Below the pieces are notes generated by a model. The model was not told where the DNA came from. It saw nothing but the letters and a program-made list of their open reading frames with translations, and ran no database searches. Below, one piece after another: positions 19,867 to 23,712 of a stretch of 50,975 nt of DNA; within the stretch, counting starts at the first letter, position 1, and every line of letters begins with the position of its first letter. This stretch comes from a virus. The DNA lies in IMG/VR virus record IMGVR_UViG_3300008113_000065, positions 1 through 50,975 of that record; one strand, given 5' to 3'. Both the position numbers and the translations under genes were made by a program.

Positions 19867-20586
19867 ATGAATGAGCTACACTTATTTGCTGGAGCAGGGG
19901 GAGGAATCCTCGGTGGCATCCTTCTCGGACATACCCCCGTGTGTGCTGTCGAGATTGAACCTTACTGCCGGAAAGTCCTACTCCAAAGACAACGAGACGG
20001 CATCCTGCCAAAGTTCCCAATCTGGGACGATGTCACCACCTTCGATGGGAAACCGTGGCGAGGAAAGGTCGATGTCGTCTGTGGAGGATTCCCGTGTCAA
20101 GACATTAGCATTGGAAACAGTAATGGAGCCGGGATCGCAGGAGAGCGAAGCGGATTGTGGAAAGAAATGGCAAGGATCATTGGCGAAATACGACCTCGAT
20201 ACTGCTTTGTGGAAAACTCACCAATGCTTACTATTCGAGGACTCAACAGAGTCCTTGGTGATCTTTCCTCAATGGGGTATAATGCTAAATGGGGAGTTGT
20301 GGGAACTTGCGATGTCGGAGGGAATAACAAACGATTACGAATGTGGATTGTCGCAAACCTACCCGACTCCTTGCGCGAAAGTTACAAGCCCAAGAGGAAA
20401 GGCTGCACAGGCAAGAAAGGGAAATCCTATGGACACGCTTCCAAATGTAGTTGGTGGCGTTCCTCACCCCCACTTGAGCGAGTGGCTAATGGGGTGGCCC
20501 ATAGGATGGACAGACTTAAAGCAATCGGCAACGGCCAAGTTCCAATTGTGGCTGCAACAGCATGGAGAATCCTTGGAGGAGAATAA
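19867..20586 (+). CDS. C5-cytosine DNA methyltransferase (Dcm-type)
   Basis: 239 aa with the standard motif order. Motif I is HLFAGAGGGILGG (5-17, AdoMet binding), followed by CAVEIEPYCRKVL. Motif IV is GGFPCQ with catalytic Cys77. Motif VI is VENS (115-118) and motif VIII KRLRMW (155-160). Motif X is GNGQVP (221-226). The target-recognition region is short (about 165-205), so the enzyme is compact compared with the usual 300-400 aa. It would methylate cytosine C5, probably to evade restriction. Its TAA lies directly before the helicase ATG. Almost the whole gene is overlapped in the +1 frame by a second 239-codon frame. Confidence 0.92.
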   Translation: MNELHLFAGAGGGILGGILLGHTPVCAVEIEPYCRKVLLQRQRDGILPKFPIWDDVTTFDGKPWRGKVDVVCGGFPCQDISIGNSNGAGIAGERSGLWKEMARIIGEIRPRYCFVENSPMLTIRGLNRVLGDLSSMGYNAKWGVVGTCDVGGNNKRLRMWIVANLPDSLRESYKPKRKGCTGKKGKSYGHASKCSWWRSSPPLERVANGVAHRMDRLKAIGNGQVPIVAATAWRILGGE

Positions 20587-20590
20587 ATGA
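19871..20590 (+). CDS. Overlapping +1-frame protein inside the methyltransferase gene
   Basis: Starts at ATG 19871 (the two starts form ATGAATG) and ends at 20590, so it covers the methyltransferase almost exactly. Residues 70-232 read like a conserved phage/bacterial hypothetical family: VEDSRVKTLA, then KKWQGSLAKYDLDTALWKTH, FPQWGIMLNGELWEL, YPTPCAK and the Trp-rich HLSEWLMGWPIGWTDLK. An internal ATG at 20072 follows GAGGAAAGG and may be the real start (173 aa), because residues 1-68 look less constrained. The function is unknown. Its last 4 nt overlap the helicase start. It could instead be a passive shadow of Dcm conservation. Confidence 0.55.
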   Translation: MSYTYLLEQGEESSVASFSDIPPCVLSRLNLTAGKSYSKDNETASCQSSQSGTMSPPSMGNRGEERSMSSVEDSRVKTLALETVMEPGSQESEADCGKKWQGSLAKYDLDTALWKTHQCLLFEDSTESLVIFPQWGIMLNGELWELAMSEGITNDYECGLSQTYPTPCAKVTSPRGKAAQARKGNPMDTLPNVVGGVPHPHLSEWLMGWPIGWTDLKQSATAKFQLWLQQHGESLEENK

Positions 20591-22979: not shown

Positions 22980-23345
22980 ATGAACTTTACCCATGAGATT
23001 CTGCGACAAATGGGATATAAGATAGATGCCGATGGAAACTACTCACGCTCTGAAACTAACGCTCCACGGGTATCTGACCCCAAGCCTAAACCAGTTGCTA
23101 GGAAAACACTTCCGAATACTGATAAAGCACAAAAAAGAAGCAAGGAACGCATTGTTCTCCGAATTACGAGGTATGCAACGCGACTACTTGATGAAGATAA
23201 CCTTGCCGGGGCGAAATTACTGGTCGATCAATTACGATATGCTGGAATCATACCTAACGACGACCCGCAGTGCCTTAAAATCATCCTTGACCAAATCAAG
23301 GTCAAACACAAGACGGAAGAAAGAACGGAAATTGAAATAAAATAA
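22980..23345 (+). CDS. RusA-like Holliday-junction resolvase domain protein
   Basis: 121 aa. Residues 57-120 fit the RusA-type core: IVLRITRYATRLLDEDNLAG, KLLVDQLRYAGIIPNDDP and IKVKHKTEERTEIEI. The acidic residues in LDEDN (70-74), Asp83 and NDD (93-95) would form the metal site for junction cleavage. Residues 1-56 are an unusual N-terminus (ILRQMGYKIDADGNYSR, then Pro/Lys-rich). The usual RusA first strand (LTLHGYLTPSLNQLLG) is instead readable in the overlapping +1 frame. Either the locus is dual-coding or the two halves are joined by frameshifting. Confidence 0.7.
   Translation: MNFTHEILRQMGYKIDADGNYSRSETNAPRVSDPKPKPVARKTLPNTDKAQKRSKERIVLRITRYATRLLDEDNLAGAKLLVDQLRYAGIIPNDDPQCLKIILDQIKVKHKTEERTEIEIK
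23026..23340 (+). CDS. Overlapping +1-frame reading frame inside the RusA-like gene
   Basis: 104 codons wholly inside the RusA-like gene. Residues 8-48 (ALKLTLHGYLTPSLNQLLGK then EARNALFSELRG) resemble the N-terminal strand and SLN motif of RusA-type resolvases. The remainder is Ser/Thr/Lys-rich and looks like shadow sequence. It could be a separate overlapping gene, a relic of a frameshifted resolvase, or the zero frame of a -1 frameshift near CACAAAAAAG at 23128. Evidence is sequence appearance only. Confidence 0.35.
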   Translation: MPMETTHALKLTLHGYLTPSLNQLLGKHFRILIKHKKEARNALFSELRGMQRDYLMKITLPGRNYWSINYDMLESYLTTTRSALKSSLTKSRSNTRRKKERKLK

Positions 23346-23355
23346 ATATAAATAT

Positions 23356-23712
23356 ATGAATAAATACATACTACTAATAGCACTAGCAATACCAGCTTGC
23401 TCTAGCGTTAGCAAAGAAACATATACAGAGTCACGCACTCTAACATATCCCAAAGGTGGTTATCCTCACATTAAAGATATGTATCTGCGTAATGACAATA
23501 GCGGGAATATGTCAACGCATGGAGTAAATCCAATCAATAATAACAATGTCATGGTTGCTCCAGCTACTCCAGTTGAGCCTGTAAGCACTCAAGAAGATTG
23601 GAGGTATGTGAATCCAGACCTTCCAGTAAAGCAAGAGCCAACCTACGAGGATATACAGAACGAGAATAAACTACTTCTCGCTAAATACTACAATGATTGG
23701 TTGAGGGAGTAG
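23356..23712 (+). CDS. Predicted lipoprotein, last early gene, 118 aa
   Basis: A classic lipoprotein signal (MNKYILLIALAIPACSS, lipobox AIPAC with Cys15) precedes a polar, Asn/Pro-rich mature chain ending with a helix NENKLLLAKYYNDWLRE. It would be lipid-anchored in the envelope of a Gram-negative host. Being in the early rather than the lysis region, a superinfection-exclusion or host-surface role is possible, but there is no homologue I can name. Confidence 0.65.
   Translation: MNKYILLIALAIPACSSVSKETYTESRTLTYPKGGYPHIKDMYLRNDNSGNMSTHGVNPINNNNVMVAPATPVEPVSTQEDWRYVNPDLPVKQEPTYEDIQNENKLLLAKYYNDWLRE

Follow-up and report, generated by a model that had tools for sequence, protein, structure and literature searches.

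The window (the whole 50,975-base virus record that was analysed) harbors two overlapping genes on the same strand, offset by +1, which together encode, with a probability that we put at about 70%, a two-piece RusA-type Holliday-junction resolvase. In divergent relatives, both frames are open and show purifying selection, and the presence of an overlapping, dual-coding gene pair is well supported. We infer that both products are translated, that the halves assemble and that they cleave junctions.

RusA halves in two reading frames

The frame-0 ORF (22980-23345) comprises 121 aa, and its protein matched PHROG_34 and PHROG_1682, both 'RusA-like Holliday junction resolvase', over residues 48-121 only (E ~7e-6). 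The catalytic residues of RusA are D70, D72, D91 and K76 in E. coli numbering. D71, D73, K79 and D94 were invariant in the frame-0 alignment (A6); the RusA catalytic acids are present in frame 0, and all catalytic residues known belong to this frame. The N-terminal half of RusA (strand 1, S-N loop and helix 1) was present, but in the +1 frame. The features of the locus are as follows:

22980..23345, + strand: frame-0 gene (C-half of RusA) with N-terminal peptide, linker and strand 2/catalytic core; matches PHROG_34/1682
23032..23340, + strand: +1-frame gene (N-half of RusA), METTHALKLTLHGYLTPSLN...; present in all complete loci, start kept in close relatives
22980..23045, + strand: frame-0 N-terminal peptide (MNFTHEILRQMGYKIDADGNYS), constrained in frame 0, with substitutions peaking at codon position 3 (residues 1-12)
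23050..23169, + strand: RusA N-half in +1, with strand 1, SLN motif (23083-23091) and helix 1 up to ...ALFSELR; seen from +1 identity and the HMM match to intact L118 and L119
23131..23136, + strand: A-run, the suggested site of -1 slippage; not conserved
23151..23177, + strand: dual-coding stretch, frame-0 strand 2 (LRITRY) over the end of +1 helix 1; identity ~0.61 in both frames (residues 57-65), and models
23190..23264, + strand: catalytic set in frame 0, D71, D73 (LDEDN), K79 and D94/D95, from the alignment

With an alternative ATG, the +1 ORF spans 23026-23340 (104 aa), is nested in the frame-0 ORF and includes LKLTLHGYLTPSLNQLLGKHFRIL. The ATG at 23026 was not conserved (ACG in L001), and the ATG at 23032 is the start retained by close relatives. 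The TPSLN motif of the +1 product was near-invariant; after helix 1 the product continues as a basic, S/T/K-rich tail, and its C-terminal tail varies and has low complexity. The third frame contained many stops. An earlier note on this DNA had described a RusA signal divided between two frames, and this was borne out, with both ORFs at the positions it gave. Within the window, taken by itself, an open +1 frame of such length was only mildly unusual (P 0.004-0.03); a chance open frame was possible from these data and is excluded by the conservation across the family. Upstream of the frame-0 ORF we found genes for a RecT-like annealing protein, an exonuclease, a DnaD-like loader, a cytosine methylase and a DnaB-like helicase.

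Conservation and selection in both frames

A search of viral contigs in which the frame-0 core was the sole query yielded 164 loci, of which we examined the best 80. Among them, the +1 N-half was present in every locus long enough to show it (79 counted, window included); L085 and L096 were truncated by the contig end and too short. The search made no use of the +1 frame, whose presence is thus an independent finding. The S of SLN (+1) and the first D of DxDN (frame 0) were exactly 107 nt apart in 79/79 measurable loci, again including the window. Many loci were near-identical: at 95% nucleotide identity 41 of them count as distinct, and at 80% this number is 15. Close relatives retained both frames, and no complete locus carried both RusA halves in one polypeptide, the two frames being found in each of them. 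PHROG_34 matched 26/26 aligned frame-0 members, and the PHROG_34/1682 matches covered the C-half. Scans of genome contigs gave zero relatives, thus no cellular or prophage copies and no host from these.

The frame under constraint switches along the gene from frame 0 to +1 and back to frame 0, with the first passage near residue 22-23. In the 41 sequences, differences at frame-0 codon positions 1/2/3 were 0.31/0.21/0.44 for residues 1-12 and 0.44/0.16/0.10 for residues 32-40, where position 1 is the third position of the +1 frame; for residues 75-84 the peak was back at position 3 (0.08/0.09/0.49). Amino-acid identity over frame-0 residues 32-40 was 0.91 in the +1 frame vs 0.47 in frame 0, and it was ~0.61 in either frame over residues 57-65. 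Across the core (residues 57-110), we observed 1 stop in the +1 frame vs 12.2 expected in 15 sequences <80% identical. The expectation was derived by shuffling synonymous codons, and the minimum in 2000 shuffles was 6. The sole stop seen was the terminal stop of L043 itself. Conversely, the +1-constrained stretch contained 0 frame-0 stops vs 10.7-13.8 expected. Ordinary genes of the window, used as control, showed no depletion of stops (477 observed vs 444 expected). In these counts, shared ancestry was handled by thinning on identity alone. The earlier note had named a stop-riddled +1 segment in homologues as evidence against its claim; the segment was never broken by stops.

The same layout, with the core in one frame and the N-half at +1, was found in a distant second lineage, the methanogen virus vir555 (BK063671, here L015), in which ~35 codons lie between the SLN position and the catalytic D. 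The joined halves of L015 scored 50.1 bits against PHROG_34, the core alone 35.9. A GAGGAGG sequence is located a few bases upstream of its +1 ATG (duplex energy -12.2 kcal/mol), and this strong Shine-Dalgarno supports separate initiation there. In most freshwater relatives the +1 start lacked a strong Shine-Dalgarno and varied in position; an ATG was available for the +1 ORF in 40/41 distinct sequences, and the L034 group has no ATG. No relatives of L015 were found in viral contigs. Annotation fails at this locus because PHROGs detect the frame-0 half only and the GenBank record of vir555 annotates the +1 ORF only.

In L045 and L046 the PDG[ST]Y motif at the +1 and frame-0 N-termini is repeated by an in-frame insertion, and both frames stay open. 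When compared to L002/L003, the window has a mosaic junction at 23110-23150, being near-identical 5' of the A-run and far more diverged 3' of it; the core and the N-half can hence recombine with both frames remaining open. In L007 (2501-2590) an unrelated homing-endonuclease-like protein carries the frame-0 N-terminal peptide (MNFTHEILQQMGYKANADGSYSRTETFSPR), with no RusA core nearby, and the peptide may be a movable tag.

Homology of the halves to intact RusA

The +1 proteins alone gave no significant RusA match in Pfam and PHROGs, and the frame-0 half did not match Pfam PF05866. Intact relatives, in which RusA is read in one continuous frame, were available for comparison: L118 and L119 from viral contigs, and L110 (MW202801). 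They have the same motifs as the split gene; L118, for example, shows KLTIPEITPSLNVWERMHW ... ALDHDNLVGGCKALIDAL and reads MKEIKLTIPEITPSLNVWERMHWAKRRKIKEDW...SVKIVSYRTKALDHDNLVGGCKALIDAL, which L119 and L110 resemble. Against a profile built from the +1 half, the N-half of L118 and that of L119 each scored higher than all of their 2000 shuffled versions; for the N-half of L110 this held with one exception. When the +1 columns were added to the core columns, scores increased from 41.5 to 54.0 bits for L118 (gain 12.5), from 13.1 to 28.3 bits for L119 (gain 15.2) and from 30.7 to 38.8 bits for L110 (gain 8.1). These gains exceeded all 200 column-shuffled controls. In a set of 13 intact RusAs including L110, L108, L109, L110 and L116 beat 60/60 controls, while several others did not. 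No significance was reached when the +1 half was compared, profile to profile, with five actinophage RusAs, and intact relatives closer than these were required. With the joined halves as query, the phage collection gave weak hits to intact RusAs, apart from MW202801. Searching both frames against RusA profiles, as the earlier note had proposed, gave a match of the frame-0 half to PHROGs and of the +1 profile to the N-half of intact relatives. A lack of RusA similarity in the +1 N-terminus, the other outcome that the note had named as counting against its claim, was thus not observed. At the level of sequence, these comparisons showed both halves to be homologous to one intact protein.

The AlphaFold model of the frame-0 protein was moderately confident (pLDDT 70), with a strand at 58-66, a helix at 72-87 and strands at 99-107 and 115-120; it contains neither strand 1 nor helix 1. 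The +1 chain was modeled as a single helix (19-59) with pLDDT >80 at residues 31-50 and low values in the remainder. In a Foldseek search with the frame-0 model, RusA 2h8c ranked 15th, with 27% identity and a non-significant E of 0.53. The models fit a division of the protein into two halves without proving it.

Alternative readings and the proposed two-subunit resolvase

The earlier note had proposed that a -1 shift near the A-run fuses the frames into one resolvase of ~105 residues. The A-run of the window sits in the right place for such programmed frameshifting, but in most relatives the run is replaced by other sequence, and an in-phase slippery heptamer was present in just 1/41 distinct sequences. 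Moreover, the +1 frame is held open far downstream, which would be pointless if ribosomes shifted out of it. The spacing from SLN to DxDN is ~36 codons in the split gene vs ~52-55 in intact relatives (L118, L110), a difference that arises from the bases shared by helix 1 (+1) and strand 2 (frame 0). A single shift can therefore not rebuild a whole RusA: wherever the frames were joined, some of helix 1 or of strand 2 would be lost, and at the A-run this would be the remainder of helix 1. We consider this proposal very improbable. A ribosomal +1 shift out of frame 0 past the N-terminal peptide, which would give two products sharing this peptide, fits the passage of constraint near residue 22-23 and the weak or non-ATG starts of some +1 ORFs. 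No common shift site was apparent in the aligned DNA, however, an ATG is on offer in nearly all distinct sequences, and the +1 start of L015 combines ATG and strong Shine-Dalgarno. As a general explanation such a shift is quite unlikely; it may apply to those members in which the inner gene has a poor start.

The earlier note also listed an ancestral frameshift and a second overlapping gene as alternatives, of which the evidence favours the latter. That the locus is a decayed RusA gene, whose +1 half is a remnant left by an ancestral frameshift, could be suspected from the existence of intact single-frame relatives; yet the supposed relic is found in every complete locus with fixed spacing and under +1 purifying selection, so that conservation rules it out and we find it hardly credible. 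Fused, in-frame homologues, a comparison raised in the earlier note, do exist as L118, L119 and L110, but the complete split loci are all two-frame. It is also conceivable, though rather unlikely, that both genes are real and their products do not assemble, the frame-0 core acting alone or the +1 protein being re-used, e.g., as a regulator. The location of all known catalytic residues in frame 0 and the variable, low-complexity C-terminal tail of the +1 product would agree with this. On the other hand, the +1 product retains precisely the RusA half that is absent from frame 0, including the near-invariant TPSLN, and the frame-0 model lacks strand 1 and helix 1.

According to the two-subunit reading, the frame-0 protein would begin with a short N-terminal peptide and a variable linker and go on to strand 2 and the catalytic acids (LDxDN, K, DD), and an internal start in the +1 frame would give a small protein with strand 1, SLN loop, helix 1 and basic tail. 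The two products would most likely fold together to one RusA unit, which would dimerise and cut branched DNA arising from the RecT/exonuclease recombination and replication module of the phage. RuvC was not matched in the 8 records carrying the pair, nor was a second RusA (no PF05866 match, no other PHROG_34 match), and these records are possibly fragments. With somewhat less confidence than for the two-piece enzyme itself, we favour the view that an ancestral enzyme domain was cut in two and its halves overprinted, the same bases specifying helix 1 in one subunit and strand 2 in its partner, and that many environmental phages and a methanogen virus have retained this obligate two-subunit junction resolvase.

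The split gene shares with RusA (E. coli RusA, PDB 1q8r/2h8c; PF05866; PHROG_34) the order of elements (strand 1, S-N loop, helix 1, strand 2, DxDN, helix 2, DD, two strands) and the catalytic acids, and it is located in a phage recombination and replication module. It differs in consisting of two polypeptides from overlapping frames, with strand 2 and the end of helix 1 sharing DNA, and in the additional N-terminal peptide and linker of the frame-0 protein. The intact L118, L119 and L110 differ from it by their one continuous frame and an SLN-DxDN distance that is ~16-19 codons longer. A +1 gene nested in another, with products acting as one complex, is known from the Rz/Rz1 spanin genes of phage lambda; these, however, function in lysis and are not halves of one ancestral domain. 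Programmed -1 frameshifting, e.g., in tail assembly chaperones, likewise makes one functional unit from two overlapping frames, but the split RusA has no conserved slippery site, its +1 frame stays open downstream and no single shift gives the whole domain. The PRFect paper (PMC10885494) names 'RusA/RuvC' among known frameshifted genes without detail. In open-access papers we found no description of a split or overlapping RusA, and this absence is not proof. If the proposed reading is true, the locus represents an enzyme domain whose two halves overlap in the same DNA, of which we found no earlier description; it would show a route from a single-domain enzyme to a two-subunit one, and the overlap could lock both subunits into one inseparable genetic unit. 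Further small split enzymes may be hidden likewise.

Two further regions on the + strand were noticed. At 23356-23712 a small, likely lipoprotein is encoded (MNKYILLIALAIPACSS...), with only a weak match to Rz-like spanins (E 0.08). At 19867-20590 there are two 239-codon ORFs in +1 offset and near-complete overlap, one for a Dcm-type C5 methylase (Pfam DNA_methylase) and one matching PHROG_1008 'DNA methyltransferase' (58 bits), which constitute a second +1 overlap of related genes within the same module.
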